From Microbispora amethystogenes (lineage in GTDB: Bacteria > Actinomycetota > Actinomycetes > Streptosporangiales > Streptosporangiaceae): DNA of 64,000 bases. Made by a program: the position numbers and the translations under genes. The DNA lies in the NCBI RefSeq assembly GCF_016863015.1, contig NZ_BOOB01000046.1, positions 1 through 64,000 of the forward strand, read 5' to 3'. Under the pieces are notes generated by a model, which searched no databases, was not told the origin of the DNA, and saw only the letters and a program-made list of their open reading frames with translations. Shown piece by piece: positions 11,029-18,757 of the stretch; the first letter of the stretch is position 1; the number at the start of each line of letters is the position of its first letter.

Positions 11029-11853
11029 ATGCCACCGGAAAGCGTTCTCAACCCCACCGACTCCCCCACCGCGCTCTTCGGCTTCGAGTTGCGGCGGCAC
11101 CGCAAGGCGCGAGGCTGGTCGCAGTTGCGACTGGCCCGCGCGGTGCCGTACTCGGTGGGAACGATCAGCATGATCGAGACCGCGAAGCGGTCACCCTCAG
11201 AGCAGTTCGCCCGGCACTGCGACGAGGCGCTGGAGGCCGACGGCGCGCTCATGCGGCTGTGGCCGATGGTCAGCCACGCCTCCGCTCCCCCGTGGTTCCG
11301 GCCCTGGCTCGACGTCGAGGCGACGGCGGAGGCGATCCGCACCTGGGAACCACTACTCGTGCCCGGCATACTCCAGACCGAGGACTACGCGAGAGCCATC
11401 CTGAGCGGCGAGCCCGGGGCGAGCGACGAAGAGATCGAGATGCACGTCGTGGCCCGGATGGAACGGCAGACGATCCTTCGCCGTCCCAAGCCGCCGATGC
11501 TGTGGGTCGTCATTGACGAGGGCGTCATGCACCGCCCGATCGGCAGCCCGGCCGTAATGGCGGCACAACTCACCCATCTCCTCGAAGCCGGCCAAGCCCC
11601 CAGAATCACCCTTCAGGTTCTCCCTCTCAGCGCCTGCTCCACTACCGGCCTCCTTGGCGGCTTCGCCATAGCCTCGGCACGCGGTACTCCCGAAACCGCC
11701 TATGTCGAGGCGGCATGCGACGCTCAGGTAACCGACTGGACGGAGAGCGTCGGGACCCTAGCATTGAGATACGAGGGGATCCGCGCCGAAGCCCTGCCAC
11801 AGCGCGATTCCCTAAAATTGATCAAGGAGACGATACAACGATGGACGAACTGA
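11029..11853 (+). CDS. XRE-family HTH regulator with DUF5753 domain
   Basis: This 274-residue protein has an N-terminal XRE helix-turn-helix (LRRHRKARGWSQLRLARAVPYSVGTISMIETAKR in layout) and a C-terminal DUF5753 region marked by WEPLLVPGILQTEDYARAIL, RQTILRRPKPPMLWVVIDEGVMHRPIGS and LLGGFAIASA. These proteins pair with small DUF397 partners; the XRE protein binds DNA and the partner antagonises or modulates it (known for WhiJ-like systems). GAGGAG precedes the ATG. The stop overlaps the DUF397 start by 13 bases, so the two are translationally coupled. It lies opposite the HATPase gene across a palindrome. Confidence 0.93.
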   Translation: MPPESVLNPTDSPTALFGFELRRHRKARGWSQLRLARAVPYSVGTISMIETAKRSPSEQFARHCDEALEADGALMRLWPMVSHASAPPWFRPWLDVEATAEAIRTWEPLLVPGILQTEDYARAILSGEPGASDEEIEMHVVARMERQTILRRPKPPMLWVVIDEGVMHRPIGSPAVMAAQLTHLLEAGQAPRITLQVLPLSACSTTGLLGGFAIASARGTPETAYVEAACDAQVTDWTESVGTLALRYEGIRAEALPQRDSLKLIKETIQRWTN

Positions 11854-12062
11854 TCCAGGAACTACGGGCAGCGACCTGGACCAAGTCGTCCCGTTCCGGA
11901 AGCAATGGCGGCAACTGCGTTGAGGTGGCTGAGCTGTCCCAAGGACGTCGGGGCGTTCGCGACAGCAAGAACCCCACCGGCCCGACCCTGGTATTCACCG
12001 CCGCCGAGTGGGATGCCTTCGTCCAGGGCGTGAAGCACGGCGAGTTCGACAATCTGCCCTGA
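11841..12062 (+). CDS. DUF397 domain protein (XRE partner)
   Basis: This 73-residue protein carries the DUF397 hallmarks in order: TWTKSSRSGSNGGNCVEVAEL, then VRDSKNPTGPTLVFTAAEWDAFVQGVKHGEFD. DUF397 proteins are the small modulators of XRE/DUF5753 regulators. Its ATG lies inside the end of the upstream gene (11841-11853), implying coupled translation. The next feature is the convergent end of the hsd operon, so it closes this small transcript. Confidence 0.95.
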   Translation: MDELIQELRAATWTKSSRSGSNGGNCVEVAELSQGRRGVRDSKNPTGPTLVFTAAEWDAFVQGVKHGEFDNLP

Positions 12063-12117: not shown

Positions 12118-13272
12118 TCAGAGTCGGTCCGTGAACGCGGCGTTCAGCAAGGATGTCCGTAGCGCGGCTACATGCCCGTCCGTCTGTGCGGCCGTCCTCA
12201 TGCCCTGCGCAAGGCCATCCAGCAACCTGGCGATGCGATCTTGAACGGAGCGATCAGGAATCGGGACGCGGAGCCTCTCGAAAGCCTTGATTCCTAGTGT
12301 TCTATTTCGATCCGCCATTCCCGGAGAACAAACTCCAATGTCCGCCAGGCCTGTCCTCGTCAGAAGATAGTGCCGGATATAGCTGATGTTGACACGGGAA
12401 TCACGTGGAAGGTAGAAGAGAAACCGGTTCGACGCTACGCACTCGGTGTCTTCCCGAGCAGTGACACCGATCGCACCTTCCCATGCCTTAATATTACTAA
12501 GGACGAGCGCACCCTCGGGAAATCGGAAGTAGCGCAGCTTGCTGAGCTCGGAGCCGGGAACGAAATCATATCGGATCGTCCCCTTACCAAAGGACCGCAG
12601 ACCGAGCGCCCTGTAGCGAGCATCGGGATCGATCCCTACAGGAGTTCTGCGGGATAGGAGGAGCTCATCGACAGCCGGTCGAGGGACGTCGGCGTCCACA
12701 ACGGATGAGAATAACGACTCGGCGAGTGCGGCCTGCTGACGACGCATCTGCGATCGAAGCTGCTCAATCGAACTGATCTTCTTGCCAGCAGCATCCAAGT
12801 GAGCAGCCATCCTGCGCTGCTCATATAGGTCAGGCAGTTGAAGTTCAATAGATTCAAATGCCTTGATGCCCAGGGTACGATTCCGGTCCGCAGATCCTGG
12901 AGACGCCCGCCCTATTTGCGCAAGCCCTTTTTCCGAAAGGAAATAGTGGAACAGATAGCGAATTTCAATATCCTCGACGACAGGAGTATAGAAAAGAAAG
13001 CGATTCGATGCCACAGCCCCCAAGTCGCTCGCAGCCGATACCCCAATCGCACCCTCCCACGCCTTGATATTACTAATAGCCAAGGCATTATCAGGAAATC
13101 TAAAATACCTCAGCTTGCTAAGCTGCCCGCCTGGGGCTGCCGGATAGTGAAATATCCCCTTCCCGAATGACCTGATGCCGATAGCCTGGTATGCACAATC
13201 GGGTTCAATCTCAACGGGATATCGCTCAAGTTGCAGAATATCCCCAACCCGCACCCTCTTCATCGAAGTCAT
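12118..13272 (-). CDS. hsdS: Type I restriction-modification specificity subunit with two near-identical TRDs
   Basis: This 384-residue HsdS would dock with HsdM and HsdR and set the recognition sequence. Residues about 20-160 and 211-352 are two copies of one target-recognition domain plus helix: each has RSFGKG, SKLRYFRFP, SNIKAWEGAIGV, ASNRFLFY and DRNRTLGIKAF in the same order, offset by 191 residues. Classic HsdS proteins have two different TRDs for an asymmetric bipartite site; identical TRDs would read a symmetric, interrupted palindrome. ATG 13272 is two bases after the hsdM stop. Base composition is AT-richer than flanking genes, and the codon use differs, consistent with horizontal transfer. 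The DNA copies have diverged, so the duplication is not recent. Confidence 0.93.
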   Translation of the reverse strand: MTSMKRVRVGDILQLERYPVEIEPDCAYQAIGIRSFGKGIFHYPAAPGGQLSKLRYFRFPDNALAISNIKAWEGAIGVSAASDLGAVASNRFLFYTPVVEDIEIRYLFHYFLSEKGLAQIGRASPGSADRNRTLGIKAFESIELQLPDLYEQRRMAAHLDAAGKKISSIEQLRSQMRRQQAALAESLFSSVVDADVPRPAVDELLLSRRTPVGIDPDARYRALGLRSFGKGTIRYDFVPGSELSKLRYFRFPEGALVLSNIKAWEGAIGVTAREDTECVASNRFLFYLPRDSRVNISYIRHYLLTRTGLADIGVCSPGMADRNRTLGIKAFERLRVPIPDRSVQDRIARLLDGLAQGMRTAAQTDGHVAALRTSLLNAAFTDRL

Positions 13273-13274
13273 AT

Positions 13275-14741
13275 TTATGCCTCCATCAGATCTTTAGCGA
13301 GATCTTCAAGAAGGTGAAGAATCTCCTTTTCGGTCTTGATCAGCTCAGCGAGAAGCTCGTGCGGAGGACGATGCGCGAGGTCGTCACCCTGGTGGGGATT
13401 CGTGAGATCAAAGTTCAAGCCGTTGGCTGCGATGTCGGCAATGGGGACGCGCCAGGCATGCTCGTTCTCGACGCGACCCTCGCGCGACTTTCCGCCCCAC
13501 CAGTCGGCGCACTCGGCGAACTCCTCGTCGCGCATCGGCTTGGTCTTGCTGTAGCCCTTGCGTCCTTCGGGTGGGGATATCTCGTAGAACCAGGTCTCCT
13601 TCGTCGGCCCCGTCTTCTCGAAGAAGAGGAGATTCGACGGGATCTGTGTGTACGGGGCGAAGACACCCTGCGGGAGCCGTATGACCGTGTGCAGGTCGCA
13701 CTCACGCAGCAGTCGTTCCTTGATTCGAGCACCGGCACCTTCGCCGAACAGTACGCCGTTCGGCAGGACGATGGCGCATCGGCCACCTGGCTTGAGCTTG
13801 TCGAGGATCGCCAGCAGGAACAGCCAGGCCGTTTCCTTGGTGCGTACCCCGGCCGGGAAACGCTGTGAAACCGAGGTCTCCTCCTCCCCGCCGAAGGGCG
13901 GGTTGGTGAGCACCACGTTGACCTTGCTCGCCGGGCCGATCTCGTTGGTCATCTGCACGAGCGCGTTGTTCCGCACGACGGCCGGCGTGTCGACACCATG
14001 CAGGATCAGGTTCATCAGGCACAGCAGGTACGGCAGCGGCTTCTTCTCGATGCCACGCAGATCGGTGTGCAACCGCTTACGTGAGGTTGTGGTGTCGGCC
14101 TTGTCCGCCAACTCCTCCAACACCTCGACGAGGAAGCCGCCGGTCCCACAGGCCGGGTCGAGGATGCTTTCGCCTAACGAGAGGAACGACTGCTGGACCA
14201 TGAACCGAATCACCGGGCGCGGGGTGTAGAACTCGCCCGAGTCTCCGGCCGCGTCACGCACCTCCTTGAGGATCGACTCGTAGAGGTAGGCCATCGTGTG
14301 AATGTCGTCGCTGGAGGTGAAATTGATCTCGTTCAGCCTGCTCACGAGGTCCCTCAGCAGGTAGCCCGAGAGCATCCGGTTGTGGATCTCCTTGAACAAC
14401 GACGTCAGCACCGGATCCTTGGGCCCGGTTCCGTCAAGGTCCCCCCGCAGGTACGGCAGCAACTCATTGTTCACGAAGCTCCGGAAGTCATCACCCGTGA
14501 AATCGGCGTTCGGTGCCCAGTCGCGCCAGCGGTAAGGCTTGTCGATGGCGGGCCGGTAATCCTCCTCGACCAGTTCCCGGGTGTCCTCCATCGCGTCGAA
14601 GGCCCGGAGGAACAGCAGCCACGAAAGCTGCGGCAGGCGATCGAGGTCGCCATTGAGGCCGGCATCCTTGCGCATGATGTCACGTGCGGCCTTGATGACC
14701 GCGGTCAGCCGAGCCCGAGAGGTCTTGTCCGCCGTCGCCAT
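13275..14741 (-). CDS. hsdM: Type I restriction-modification DNA methyltransferase subunit
   Basis: This 488-residue N6-adenine methyltransferase has the HsdM_N helical domain (residues 10-130), SAM motif I DPACGTGGF (about 195-203) and catalytic motif IV NPPF (about 280-283, followed by GG). It methylates the target defined by HsdS, protecting host DNA and forming the M2S core for HsdR. Its ATG 14741 shares the A with the TGA of the AbiEii-type toxin gene (TGATG), so translation is coupled to the toxin; a TTG at 14744 is also in frame. hsdS follows after two bases. Normal length for the family, no visible defect. Confidence 0.96.
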   Translation of the reverse strand: MATADKTSRARLTAVIKAARDIMRKDAGLNGDLDRLPQLSWLLFLRAFDAMEDTRELVEEDYRPAIDKPYRWRDWAPNADFTGDDFRSFVNNELLPYLRGDLDGTGPKDPVLTSLFKEIHNRMLSGYLLRDLVSRLNEINFTSSDDIHTMAYLYESILKEVRDAAGDSGEFYTPRPVIRFMVQQSFLSLGESILDPACGTGGFLVEVLEELADKADTTTSRKRLHTDLRGIEKKPLPYLLCLMNLILHGVDTPAVVRNNALVQMTNEIGPASKVNVVLTNPPFGGEEETSVSQRFPAGVRTKETAWLFLLAILDKLKPGGRCAIVLPNGVLFGEGAGARIKERLLRECDLHTVIRLPQGVFAPYTQIPSNLLFFEKTGPTKETWFYEISPPEGRKGYSKTKPMRDEEFAECADWWGGKSREGRVENEHAWRVPIADIAANGLNFDLTNPHQGDDLAHRPPHELLAELIKTEKEILHLLEDLAKDLMEA

Positions 14742-15610
14742 CAAGATTCCCTTCCGTCAAGAATGATCGCGCGAGCCCAGAAGCCTCGCAGAAGTACCAT
14801 CGCCTCTGCAAAATGAACCGTCGGCGTGAGACCGCGTGCCAGGACCGGGTAGTCGATCTCCCATCGCGGCGGCGGGTCGTTGATCTCAGTCGGCAGATCA
14901 TGTGTCGCACGGACCCGGAAGACATGCCGGACGACTTTCACGAGTTCCTCGTTCGGAAGCAGCCCCATCTCGATGAGCAGGACGAGGTCTACTAGATCCT
15001 TGACCCGCGTGTTCGGCCGGCCCCCGAAGTCACGGGTGAGTGCGTGCAACTTCTCGGCGAAGTGCTGCCGCGGGTGGACGGCCTCAACGGTCGGAGTGGG
15101 GACGCCAGCGAAGGCCAAGGTTCCAGGTAGCCGCAGGTTATCCGTCTCGGCGAGTTCTTCGCCGCGAAGTGCGGCGTCCAGCCTCAACGCGGCGAAAGTC
15201 TTGCCGGCGAGCCGCGCCTCGATGCCGAATCGCCAAGCGGGACGTCCGGCTCCATCCGGCCGGAGCTCAGACGGCGAGGCGACGCGGAAGACGAAGCCGT
15301 CTCCGTCGAGGTCTGCGACAAGCGACTCGATCAGCTCTTCCTGCAGGGCCGTGCCGCTGATATCGCCCGACCGGACGGCCAGGTCCAGGTCCTTGGTCGC
15401 CCGCGCCCGGTCGAGTAGCCGGAACTCCATCGCGGCGCCACCCTTGAGTATCCATCGCCCCGGCTGTAGGACAGCCAGTCGGGCGGCCACTCGCTCGAAG
15501 AGGACGCGTCGACGAAGCCGACTTAGATCGGTGCCCTGATCATCAGCCTGTTGCTTGAGACGTGCTTCCAAAGCTTGGCGTAGCGAAACGGCATTGCCGT
15601 ACCGCGTCAT
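14741..15610 (-). CDS. abiEii: AbiEii/AbiGii-family nucleotidyltransferase toxin
   Basis: This 289-residue protein is a DNA-polymerase-beta-like nucleotidyltransferase: WILKGGAAMEFRLLDRARATKDLDLAV contains the GG...DxD motif (Gly57-Gly58, Asp74 and Asp76). A following helix has HFAEKLHALTRDFGGRPNTRVKDLVDLVLL, the conserved K...R.KDxxD part of the family. AbiEii toxins transfer nucleotides to cellular targets (GTP-dependent, and tRNA in studied relatives), causing reversible growth arrest and phage abortive infection. It overlaps abiEi by four bases (ATGA) and hsdM by one. The active-site residues look intact. The placement inside an hsd operon is unusual; see findings. Confidence 0.93.
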   Translation of the reverse strand: MTRYGNAVSLRQALEARLKQQADDQGTDLSRLRRRVLFERVAARLAVLQPGRWILKGGAAMEFRLLDRARATKDLDLAVRSGDISGTALQEELIESLVADLDGDGFVFRVASPSELRPDGAGRPAWRFGIEARLAGKTFAALRLDAALRGEELAETDNLRLPGTLAFAGVPTPTVEAVHPRQHFAEKLHALTRDFGGRPNTRVKDLVDLVLLIEMGLLPNEELVKVVRHVFRVRATHDLPTEINDPPPRWEIDYPVLARGLTPTVHFAEAMVLLRGFWARAIILDGRES

Positions 15611-16209
15611 GCTGGCTCCTCCCGGATCGCCCGTTCTACGCCCATCTCGGCCTGTGCACCTAGCCGCTGCGCAGCCCGCAGGAGCTGACCCCGAGTCGCC
15701 TCACCGCGAGCGAGGATCTCGGCGACCGCCGAATCCAGGACGTCCTGGCCGATGCCTTCGGCGGCACACTCGGCGATCGCACGGACCGGGGTGGTGACGC
15801 GGAAACCCTCCCGATCCTCAACCTCGCCAGGCTCCAGCGCAGCCCGGTGGATCACGAGGGCGTCATCCCGCTGCCGGAAGCCCGGCCCCACCGTCAGATG
15901 GACCTTCTCCGGGTTGGCGATGCCAAGATCGTGTACAACCAGGGCCGTTGCATGCGACACCACAGCACGACCCTTGCTCCAGAGCCACCATCTGATCAGA
16001 TGATCATGCTCATTCGCAGGCAGGATCGTGAACTCGCGGAGCCGATAAAGCCCCCGGTCGATGCGCAGCCAGTTTCCCCGCTGCACGTGGAAGTGCTGCG
16101 CCTGGTGCGAGTAGCCGACCTGGACCGCCTGAGCGGCCGTGAAGTAGCCCCGCTGGCTCACGGCGAGTTCCCACAGCTTGTCGCGCGGGCCTCGGGGTTC
16201 GATCAGCAT
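15607..16209 (-). CDS. abiEi: AbiEi-family antitoxin with winged-helix domain (type IV TA)
   Basis: This 200-residue protein begins with the AbiEi N-terminal winged helix (LWELAVSQRGYFTAAQAVQVGYSHQAQHFHVQRGNWLRIDRGLYRLREF in layout), followed by the AbiEi C-terminal domain (HLTVGPGFRQRDDALVIHRA...VTTPVRAIAECAAEGIGQDVLDSAVAEILARG). In type IV systems the antitoxin does not bind the toxin; it neutralises its effect, and its winged helix represses the operon by binding inverted repeats upstream. Here a perfect 23-bp inverted repeat ends 22 bases before the ATG. ATGA overlap with the toxin gene implies coupled translation. Confidence 0.92.
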   Translation of the reverse strand: MLIEPRGPRDKLWELAVSQRGYFTAAQAVQVGYSHQAQHFHVQRGNWLRIDRGLYRLREFTILPANEHDHLIRWWLWSKGRAVVSHATALVVHDLGIANPEKVHLTVGPGFRQRDDALVIHRAALEPGEVEDREGFRVTTPVRAIAECAAEGIGQDVLDSAVAEILARGEATRGQLLRAAQRLGAQAEMGVERAIREEPA

Positions 16210-16230
16210 GCGGCTATGGTAGCAAAGTGC

Positions 16231-16293
16231 AACTACAAGCCACTTTTAGTTTCACGCATATCGCGTACACGAAACTAAAAGTGGCTTGTAGTT
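16231..16293. promoter_or_regulatory. Perfect 23-bp inverted repeat upstream of abiEi (candidate AbiEi operator)
   Basis: Arms at 16231-16253 and 16271-16293 are perfectly complementary over 23 bases; the arm core is CCACTTTTAGTTTC and its mirror. The 17-base spacer itself contains ACGC...GCGT (16254-16266). The whole element sits between the abiEi start and the hsdR stop; the distal arm overlaps two bases of the hsdR TAA. AbiEi antitoxins are known to autoregulate through paired inverted repeats in their promoter. A second reading is a terminator for hsdR, but there is no T-run. Arms are AT-rich for this genome. Confidence 0.8.
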
Positions 16294-18757
16294 ATGCTGC
16301 GTCATAGACGCACCGACCGAGCCTGTCCAGTGCCTCTCGGAACCCCTCCTTTCCGCCGAACCGGGCGGCCAGCTCGGGGGCGCTACCGAGATCGGTGAAG
16401 GGATACACCTGGAGCACTGCGGGCACAAGCTGGTCAGGGCCGTGCTCTGCGTACTTGTCGAGGATCAACTCCAGGATCCCCTGTGCGTCCTCCGCGAAGG
16501 ACTCAAGGAAGGCCCGGTGCTCCCGGCGTACACGCCGGGCACGTTCCTGCCTCGTCATCCTGGGTAGTTCCCAGGCGACCGCCAGCAGCAGATCAAGCGG
16601 ATCGGCGTCCTGGTCGTGCAACTGCTTGGCGAGTTCGTTGACATCGATCCCCCGGCTGTCCAACTCTCGCAGGATCTCCGACCGCGATCGCGCCCGCGCC
16701 CATCGACCGCGCAGCTCCCCCGGGCTGAGATAGAGCCTGCGGACCTGGTCACGTGCGAACAGGCGATACTCGATCACTCGTGGCCGGCTGCTCTCGTCCA
16801 GCACATACAGGGTGTCGTTGTAGACGAACACCTCCTGTCCGTCCACGTAGAGCCGACGTGCTCGCGTGGTCACTGCGGAGACCAGGTCCTCGTCGTCCAG
16901 GTCCGCTGCTGGGGGAGGCAGTTCCCCTCCCTCTTCCTCGCGGTACTCGAACCCCGGCTCAGCCACCTGCGATGTCCCGTCGGACGGCGTCTCATCCTCT
17001 CGGTCGACCAGGCGACCCTGGTCATCGATAGTGTCCTGATACCGCTTGATCGGGGGGCCGTCGAACTCGGGATCGTCGAAGTACCGGGTGGCGTAGACGA
17101 AGTCGATGATGTCGAAGCTGAACTTGTCCCCTTCACCAAACAGCCTTGTGCCGCGTCCGATGATCTGCTTGAACTCAGCCATCGAGCTGATGGGGCGGAA
17201 CAGGACGATGTTCCGTACCGTCGGCATGTCAACGCCGGTGGACAGAAGCTTCGCTGTCACGGCGATCACCGGCGTCTCCGAGTCCACTTTCTTGAACTCG
17301 TCCAGGTGGACGAGCCCGGGTTGGCCGTCCCTTGAGGTGATCCGGACCACGTAATCACCGCCGTACTGGCGGGACAGATCCGCATTGGCGTTGTGCAGGG
17401 CGGTACGCATCCGGTTCGCATGATCGGAGTCCACGCAGAAGACGATGGTCTTGTTCATTCGGCCGGTCTCGTGCAGGAGATCCGTCAGGTATCGCGCGGC
17501 TTCCTCGGTGCGCTCTACGATCGCGATGACCCGCTCGAAGTCCCTCTGCGTGTACACCCTGTCGGGAATCAGCGCGCCGTACTTGTCGACCTGGCCCGGC
17601 TCGGGCCGCCAGCCGAAGGCGTCGACGTTGATGTTCACCCTGCGCACACGGTAAGGGGCGAGGAATCCGTCCTCGATGCCCTCCTTCAGGGAGTATTCGT
17701 ACACCGGGTCGCGAAAGTACTCAAACGTATCGGCATCGCGCTCACGAACGGGGGTCGCGGTGAGGCCAATCTGCACAGCCCGATCAAAGTACTTCAGAAT
17801 TTTCCGCCAGTTCGAGTCCTCCTTGGCACTGCCCCGATGGCACTCATCGACGATCACCAGGTCGAAGTAGTCCGGGTCGAACTTCTCGAACAGCGCCTTG
17901 TCGTCCCCATCCGTCTCCTTGCCCTTCTCCAGGGACTGGTAGAGCGCGAAGTAAATGTGACGGCCCAGCTTCGCCACTCCCCCACCCAGTTTGTGGACGG
18001 CCTCGCCGAATCCGGGGATGAAGTAGTCATCCTTCGGCTGATCCACCAGGATGTTCCGGTCGGCGAGGTAGAGCACCTTCGGCTGACGACCTTCAACCCA
18101 TCCAGCACGCGCCAGCTTCTTCACGAGCTGGTAGGCGACCATGGTCTTGCCGGTACCGGTGGCGAGGACGAGCAGGACCCGATTCCTCCCACGCCCGATC
18201 GCCTCAACCGCATGCTGGACCGCAAGCCTCTGGTAGTAGCGCGGCACCTTCAGAGTGCGATCCCAATTCAGCAGGCTCTCGTCGAAGGGTGCCAGGAGCA
18301 GATCGGCGACGAGCTCCGCGCCAGGTCCCTCGTCGAGCCCCTTCGCTCGGCGATACCGCGCCCACAATTGCTCCGGCGAGGGAAACGCACCGACATCGGC
18401 GATCTTCCCCGAATCTCGGTCGACTTCCTGGATCTTGAGGCCATTGGTGACATAGGCGAAAGGCACCTGGAGCTTCTTCGCGTATCGCTTCACCTGCTCG
18501 ATGCCGTCTCCGGGATCGATGGATGTCCGTTTCGCCTCGATGACGGCGACAGGCAGACCCGGCCGATATTCGAGCACGTAATCGGCACGCAGGGGCGCCT
18601 TCCGCCTTGGCCGGCCTCCCGCGACCATGATCTGCCCGTCGGTGATCGGATACTCGTCGACGATCTGGTCCCGATTCCAACCCGACTGCTTCAGGTGACG
18701 TTCGATGAGGATGCGCCTGGTTTCGCCCTCGTTCGGGCTGTGAGATGCACTCGCCAC
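16292..18757 (-). CDS. hsdR: Type I restriction endonuclease subunit (DEAD/DEAH translocase)
   Basis: This 821-residue HsdR has an N-terminal PD-(D/E)xK nuclease core (RADYVLEY Asp59, then AVIEAK with Glu74 and Lys76), a superfamily-2 ATPase with Walker A ATGTGKT (199-205) and DECHRGS box (304-307), a helicase C lobe with QIIGRGTRLF, and a C-terminal domain that contacts the methyltransferase. It translocates DNA with ATP and cuts remote from the unmethylated site. It is first in the minus-strand island; the abiE operator and abiEi follow at its stop. GTG 18757 is chosen. About 100-200 residues shorter than enterobacterial HsdR but typical of actinobacterial EcoEI-like forms. No inactivating change is seen. 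Confidence 0.95.
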   Translation of the reverse strand: MASASHSPNEGETRRILIERHLKQSGWNRDQIVDEYPITDGQIMVAGGRPRRKAPLRADYVLEYRPGLPVAVIEAKRTSIDPGDGIEQVKRYAKKLQVPFAYVTNGLKIQEVDRDSGKIADVGAFPSPEQLWARYRRAKGLDEGPGAELVADLLLAPFDESLLNWDRTLKVPRYYQRLAVQHAVEAIGRGRNRVLLVLATGTGKTMVAYQLVKKLARAGWVEGRQPKVLYLADRNILVDQPKDDYFIPGFGEAVHKLGGGVAKLGRHIYFALYQSLEKGKETDGDDKALFEKFDPDYFDLVIVDECHRGSAKEDSNWRKILKYFDRAVQIGLTATPVRERDADTFEYFRDPVYEYSLKEGIEDGFLAPYRVRRVNINVDAFGWRPEPGQVDKYGALIPDRVYTQRDFERVIAIVERTEEAARYLTDLLHETGRMNKTIVFCVDSDHANRMRTALHNANADLSRQYGGDYVVRITSRDGQPGLVHLDEFKKVDSETPVIAVTAKLLSTGVDMPTVRNIVLFRPISSMAEFKQIIGRGTRLFGEGDKFSFDIIDFVYATRYFDDPEFDGPPIKRYQDTIDDQGRLVDREDETPSDGTSQVAEPGFEYREEEGGELPPPAADLDDEDLVSAVTTRARRLYVDGQEVFVYNDTLYVLDESSRPRVIEYRLFARDQVRRLYLSPGELRGRWARARSRSEILRELDSRGIDVNELAKQLHDQDADPLDLLLAVAWELPRMTRQERARRVRREHRAFLESFAEDAQGILELILDKYAEHGPDQLVPAVLQVYPFTDLGSAPELAARFGGKEGFREALDRLGRCVYDAA

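Follow-up and report, generated by a model that had tools for sequence, protein, structure and literature searches.

We analysed a stretch of 64,000 nucleotides (nt) from Microbispora amethystogenes (contig NZ_BOOB01000046.1, positions 1 to 64,000; hereafter the window), in which an abiE toxin-antitoxin pair lies within a type I restriction-modification locus. The order of the elements is hsdR, a perfect 23-nt inverted repeat, abiEi, abiEii, hsdM, and hsdS (Table 1). The abiEi and abiEii genes overlap by 4 nt (ATGA), abiEii and hsdM have one base in common (TGATG), and hsdM and hsdS are 2 nt apart. The distance between hsdR and hsdM, approximately 1.55 kb, is occupied by abiE. This gene order and these junctions had been claimed in an original prediction made from the nucleotide sequence, and they were borne out by the open frames and by family searches.

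Table 1. Features of the abiE-hsd locus, with positions numbered from the first nucleotide of the window.
Feature	Position	Strand	Description
hsdR	16292..18757	-	821 residues, GTG start; EcoAI/FtnUII-family type I restriction subunit (NCBIfam HsdR equivalog match)
AbiEi operator (predicted)	16231..16293		two perfect 23-nt inverted arms (16231-16253 and 16271-16293) with 17 nt between
Candidate -10 element TACCAT	16216..16221	-	6 nt 5' of the abiEi ATG; read by eye
abiEi	15607..16209	-	200 residues; antitoxin, presumed repressor
abiEii	14741..15610	-	289 residues; nucleotidyltransferase toxin, sequence kin of Rv1045
GGAAGGG, presumed hsdM ribosome-binding site	14749..14755	-	identified by eye within the 3' end of abiEii
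hsdM	13275..14741	-	488 residues; N6 methyltransferase subunit
hsdS	12118..13272	-	384 residues; specificity subunit

All three hsd genes are intact open frames. HsdR matched the Pfam families HSDR_N, ResIII, and EcoEI_R_C, HsdM matched HsdM_N and N6_Mtase, and HsdS matched Methylase_S. Comparison of the two HsdS halves gave 48% identity (93 of 192 positions), and the target may therefore be nearly palindromic. For AbiEi the sole Pfam match was AbiEi_4 (27.6 bits, cut-off 25), the PADLOC AbiEi model matched with E = 3.6e-67, and no sequence match was obtained among the PDB set. AbiEii was identified by Pfam (AbiEii, E = 2.9e-27) and PADLOC (AbiEii, E = 4.9e-78), and it matched structures of Rv1045 from M. 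tuberculosis (E = 3e-14). Residues K56-G57-G58, D74, D76, K187, D205, and D208 of AbiEii, which we take to be its catalytic motifs, were invariant across 14 sequences; the nucleotidyltransferase motifs of the toxin are thus intact, in agreement with what had been predicted.

A contig scan with AbiEii retrieved 58 loci, and 22 of these had the order hsdR-abiEi-abiEii-hsdM-hsdS as far as the contigs reach (21 assigned to Actinomycetota from the titles of their records, and one in a Candidatus Eisenbacteria bin). The nested order is also carried by Streptomyces griseofuscus DSM 40191 (L025). All five genes were visible in 19 of the 22; locus L014 starts inside abiEi, and L034 and L047 end before hsdS. 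An arrangement common to this many loci rules out chance or a single odd genome. The remaining 36 loci had no such hsd genes in the same arrangement and included 13 from Actinomycetota, so that abiE occurs without these hsd genes in 13 of 34 actinobacterial AbiEii loci. Three plasmid abiE loci that were inspected were also standalone. Within the genus of the window, AbiEii matches were found in two of 15 genomes, its own and one at 34% identity. The reverse scan started from HsdM; at E up to 1e-60 it selected 15 genomes among 297 of the order, and at E up to 1e-80 it selected 10 among 394 of the class. Three genomes were common to both sets, yielding 22 distinct genomes with the window included: ten had the fully nested arrangement, three had AbiEi only, two had an AbiEi remnant, and seven were without abiE. 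In two plain plasmid-borne type I relatives the hsdR-hsdM gap was 17 and 51 nt, with nothing in between.

The inverted repeat extends 2 nt into the hsdR stop codon, and its dyad occurs once in the whole 8.13-Mb genome. According to two published reports, AbiEi represses its own operon through paired 23-bp inverted repeats, the distance between the arms being 3 bp in S. agalactiae and 13 bp in each Rv2827c pair (PMC7319586, PMC3985639). The core of the repeat in the window reads TTTAGTTT-N19-AAACTAAA, and for every junction the score of the pattern TTTAGTTT-N18-20-AAACTAAA was compared with the scores of 60 shuffles. Among 25 nested loci, the window being one, 19 scored above every one of the 60 shuffles; so did 12 of 13 standalone actinobacterial abiE loci and none of 21 abiE loci of other phyla. 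Upstream of hsdR the core reached at best 7-11 of 16 matches across 34 rows, three of which (L033, L047, and L107) lacked a true hsdR start. In several loci (L034, L047, and the group L011, L013, L025, and L026) both half-sites have changed together with the symmetry kept; the dyad of L047, for example, reads TATAGTTT/AAACTATA, changed on both sides. In many loci the outer arms are mismatched and the core half-sites are kept at a spacing of 18-20 nt. Judged from these patterns the repeat is the operator of AbiEi, placed 5' of abiE-hsdMS and not of hsdR. Its assignment as an hsd element was rejected, as the same repeat precedes standalone abiE. A different palindrome, CCTTAAT-n-ATTAAGG, ending 1-5 nt before abiEi, was seen in bins of Elusimicrobia type (L036-L038, L043, L046, L049, and L055).

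Gene spacing was compared in 25 nested loci besides the window, with start codons chosen nearest to the expected ones. The 4-nt overlap of abiEi and abiEii was present in 23 of the 25, the exceptions being L032 and the fragmented L047. The spacing between abiEii and hsdM was -8 to +7 nt in 18 loci and wider in five (L008, 26; L017, 49; L023, 26; L051, 25; L121, 46), and these frames were disturbed in L002 and L047. The gap between hsdR and abiEi was 66-113 nt, except in L051 (172 nt), the fragmented L047, and L014, which shows no hsdR. These sizes leave space for a promoter 5' of abiEi and hardly any 5' of hsdM. Because the operator has the published AbiEi design, is present in a single genomic copy, precedes standalone abiE, and was not detected 5' of hsdR, the most probable arrangement is a single unit of abiEi-abiEii-hsdM-hsdS under repression by AbiEi, from which hsdR is excluded. 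The original prediction was upheld in part. It claimed that the methylase and specificity genes are translated from the toxin-antitoxin transcript, and since the operator appears to be AbiEi's own, hsdM and hsdS are very likely on that transcript; hsdR, however, lies upstream of the operator, and none was found for hsdR itself, so that abiE would head the hsdMS message rather than sit within a single restriction-modification operon.

Co-inheritance was assessed by Mantel correlation of protein distances in 18 nested loci. AbiEii distances correlated with those of HsdM (r = 0.891) and HsdR (r = 0.898); the values for AbiEi-AbiEii and HsdR-HsdM were r = 0.945 and r = 0.927. The correlation between HsdM and HsdS was only 0.481, that is, AbiE follows HsdM more closely than HsdS does. 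The trees of the locus proteins were in broad agreement. Contrary to a random placement of abiE, which had been named as a possible refutation, the pair occupies one slot in one orientation, closely spaced to hsdM, and is inherited together with hsdR and hsdM. In the AbiEii tree, for which long-branch warnings were given, nested and standalone loci were mixed, with 12 changes of context (at least nine forced by starred branches) against a shuffled mean of 19.2, and the AbiEii of the window paired with that of the standalone L031 (99/93). Thus, abiE has also moved out of, or into, the hsd context on several occasions.

The strongest indication that AbiEi acts for hsdMS as well as for its toxin comes from loci that lack a toxin gene. 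In L102, L103, and L105, which form one clade in the HsdM tree (100/99), 5 nt separate the end of a 157-residue AbiEi from hsdM, and abiEii was not detected. The ratio of nonsynonymous to synonymous substitution rates (dN/dS) for these AbiEi genes was 0.065-0.107, compared to 0.093-0.106 for intact AbiEi. Neutrality was rejected (binomial p = 1.8e-8 to 2.3e-12), and each half of the protein gave the same result. In the same loci the block of the right half-site is nearly unchanged and the left half is eroded. Purifying selection together with a conserved right half-site points to the antitoxin as a transcriptional controller of the modification genes. Two further loci, L104 and L106, contained a decayed AbiEi. 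Separately, full-length AbiEi genes that are not beside hsd were observed in L131 and L132, with no AbiEii detected in a 3.4-kb stretch; L132 is from the same genome whose hsd locus (L094) is without abiE.

We therefore favour a model with two transcription units, in which AbiEi would be both the antitoxin and the controller of the HsdM-HsdS subunits; the single transcript and the repression are read from gene arrangement and operator, and we assign the model a probability of approximately 0.7. Several observations weigh against it. A sigma-70-type scan gave no promoter at the operator and did not list the TACCAT element seen by eye, and a promoter internal to abiEii may drive hsdM. The operator core was not ahead of all shuffles in six of the 25 nested loci (L011, L026, L033, L047, L051, and L123), and among five abiE-less junctions only that of L093 passed (L094, L095, L096, and L124 did not). 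The toxin-less loci are also open to other readings. Their operators, with the left half-site missing, were equalled in score by 17-21 of 60 shuffles. Their AbiEi is approximately 43 residues shorter at the C-terminus and falls below the Pfam cut-off (23.5 vs. 25 bits), and the streptococcal AbiEi requires its C-terminal domain for repression (PMC7319586, PMC3985639). The truncated protein may therefore bind without repressing. Further, the set consists of three genomes, two of which are 97-98% identical in HsdR and HsdM, and no additional toxin-less hsdR-abiEi-hsdM loci were found in 54 and 65 genomes of two genera.

How the arrangement arose bears on its interpretation. Four loci without abiE (L093-L096) form a clade with the window in the HsdM tree (100/98), and all of the window's nearest HsdM relatives thus lack the pair. 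These relatives could represent the state before an insertion, with abiE gained by the lineage of the window, and counts of changes on the tree do not tell gain from loss. The tree alone does not decide, but nested loci lie on both sides of the abiE-less group, and the junctions retain what may be traces of abiE. The hsdR-hsdM junctions of L093-L096 are 109-196 nt long, compared to 9-51 nt in plain systems, and L093 has kept an intact AbiEi operator without an AbiEi gene. In L095 the sequence 5' of hsdM can be aligned to the 3' end of abiEii with a score of 32, against 19 for the best of 200 shuffles; the match is marginal in L093 and L096 (20 vs. 19) and not distinct in L094 (18, equalled by two of 200 shuffles). 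The GGAAGG part of the presumed hsdM ribosome-binding site is retained in the abiE-less relatives. The operator of L093, the long junctions, and the match in L095 favour loss of abiE, and a state preceding insertion appears quite unlikely to us. The toxin is dispensable, and the proposal that loss of modification, or of the antitoxin, would be lethal was therefore not supported: close relatives have hsdR-hsdM-hsdS without abiE, three have AbiEi without the toxin, and an obligate lethal coupling is further countered by the 13 actinobacterial loci that carry abiE without these hsd genes.

The strongest competitor of the two-unit model is that abiE is a selfish addiction module which settled at the hsdR-hsdM junction and stabilises the locus by co-transcription, with control of hsdMS as a by-product and toxin loss as decay. 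Such decay would fit the loci in which the toxin is lost or broken and AbiEi remains (L102, L103, L105, L106, L107, and L138), the solitary AbiEi of L131 and L132, and the abiE pairs without hsd in Actinomycetota. Against it stand the co-inheritance with HsdR and HsdM, as tight as can be expected between abiEi and hsd partners, and the purifying selection and conserved right half-site block of the toxin-less AbiEi before hsdM; we consider this explanation possible but rather doubtful. The layered defence put forward in the original prediction would make AbiEii a guard similar to PrrC, freed to stop growth if phage infection inhibits or breaks down the Hsd complex or host expression. The order is conserved, in EcoPrrI-PrrC a toxin gene with such a role lies inside a type I locus (PMC12707154), and AbiE has been described as an abortive-infection system (PMC3985639). 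However, the keeper of this toxin is its own antitoxin and not the Hsd complex, and there are loci with abiE but no hsd and with hsd but no abiE, making a guard function unlikely. Finally, the inverted repeat could be a hairpin in RNA that terminates the hsdR transcript or protects it, the two units being mere neighbours. The repeat of the window folds with -45.2 kcal/mol (z = -7.45) and was listed as terminator-like with a weak T tail, and the abiE-less L095 keeps a drifted palindrome of other letters after hsdR (z = -1.74). The same dyad nevertheless precedes standalone abiE pairs that have no preceding hsdR, the toxin-less loci have kept one half only and are unable to fold it, and many loci preserve the spaced core half-sites and not the outer arms. 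A hairpin without operator function is accordingly the least probable of these explanations.

In the two-unit model, hsdR would be expressed from upstream as its own unit and the abiEi-abiEii-hsdM-hsdS message would begin just 3' of hsdR; AbiEi, by binding the two 23-nt repeats, would repress it. A naive cell without AbiEi would experience a burst of HsdM-HsdS, and the host would be methylated before repression starts; in steady state AbiEi would keep the M and S subunits low. A drop in AbiEi, through loss of the locus or phage shut-off of expression, would let the toxin act and derepress hsdMS, and the restriction-modification locus would thereby gain a stabilising toxin. The type I systems examined are reported to lack postsegregational killing (PMC3874152), and AbiE could therefore add stability. 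A more specific version, in which AbiEi is a dedicated timer of hsdMS (burst, then repression), AbiEii adds addiction, and one lineage has kept a short, half-site-bound AbiEi as a pure restriction-modification regulator, is more tentative, and we place it slightly below even odds.

Side observations were made in the surroundings of these loci. Convergent genes 3' of hsdS are found in many nested loci (e.g. L013 12606-15012 and relatives), according to blastp over the open reading frames of the first loci: a RadC-like gene in 11 and a GmrSD_N/DUF262 gene in 14, plus one weak match. Neither is present 3' of hsdS in the window, where HTH_31/DUF5753 and DUF397 genes at 11029-12062 are convergent to hsdS; DUF5753-like frames near hsdS were also seen by eye in L004 and L009. 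L008, L033, and L095 carry a fusion of hsdM with a half-length hsdS that encodes a single protein of 690-696 residues. L107 and L138 are decaying nested loci with hsdR interrupted, abiEii truncated, and abiEi whole. In L035 (9107-18410) four large genes on the same strand come after a standalone abiE, and a defence model (mads_3, E = 1.1e-57) was matched by the last of them alone. This ATPase-like protein was the single PADLOC match among 10 large neighbours of standalone abiE loci.

Both parts of the locus are of known kinds, and the wiring is the new part. The toxin-antitoxin part resembles the AbiE type IV systems (AbiEi/AbiEii of S. agalactiae and Rv2827c/Rv2826c of M. tuberculosis) in the 4-nt overlap, the AbiEi-family antitoxin, the nucleotidyltransferase toxin, and the paired 23-bp inverted repeats 5' of abiEi, as these are described in PMC7319586. 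It differs in that the arms are 17 nt apart and transcription most likely continues into hsdM-hsdS. The HsdR equivalog match and the HsdM and HsdS families place the remainder with the EcoAI/FtnUII-family type I systems, but the two plain plasmid relatives have short hsdR-hsdM gaps where the window has abiE. EcoPrrI-PrrC likewise combines a type I hsd locus with an internal gene for a growth-arresting toxin (PMC12707154). PrrC, however, responds to inhibition of the restriction enzyme, whereas the toxin of the window has its own antitoxin-repressor heading the hsdMS message; the two were compared by role only. A locus-encoded DNA-binding protein that times restriction-modification gene expression, as presumed here, is also known from type II C proteins, described in PMC3874152 as activators or repressors of the endonuclease, unlike AbiEi, the presumed repressor of type I modification genes and an antitoxin. 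No description of AbiE in a type I hsd locus was found in the literature searched, which had most subscription papers and preprints outside it and does not prove absence from print.

That type I systems avoid cutting the unmodified host on entry is explained mainly by post-translational control of HsdR. If our model is correct, a repressor placed before hsdMS but not before hsdR would be a transcriptional answer to this entry problem, built from an antitoxin, and the toxin-less relatives permit the regulator to be studied without toxicity. It would also mean that a toxin-antitoxin pair is physically coupled to modification genes, beyond mere proximity in defence islands.

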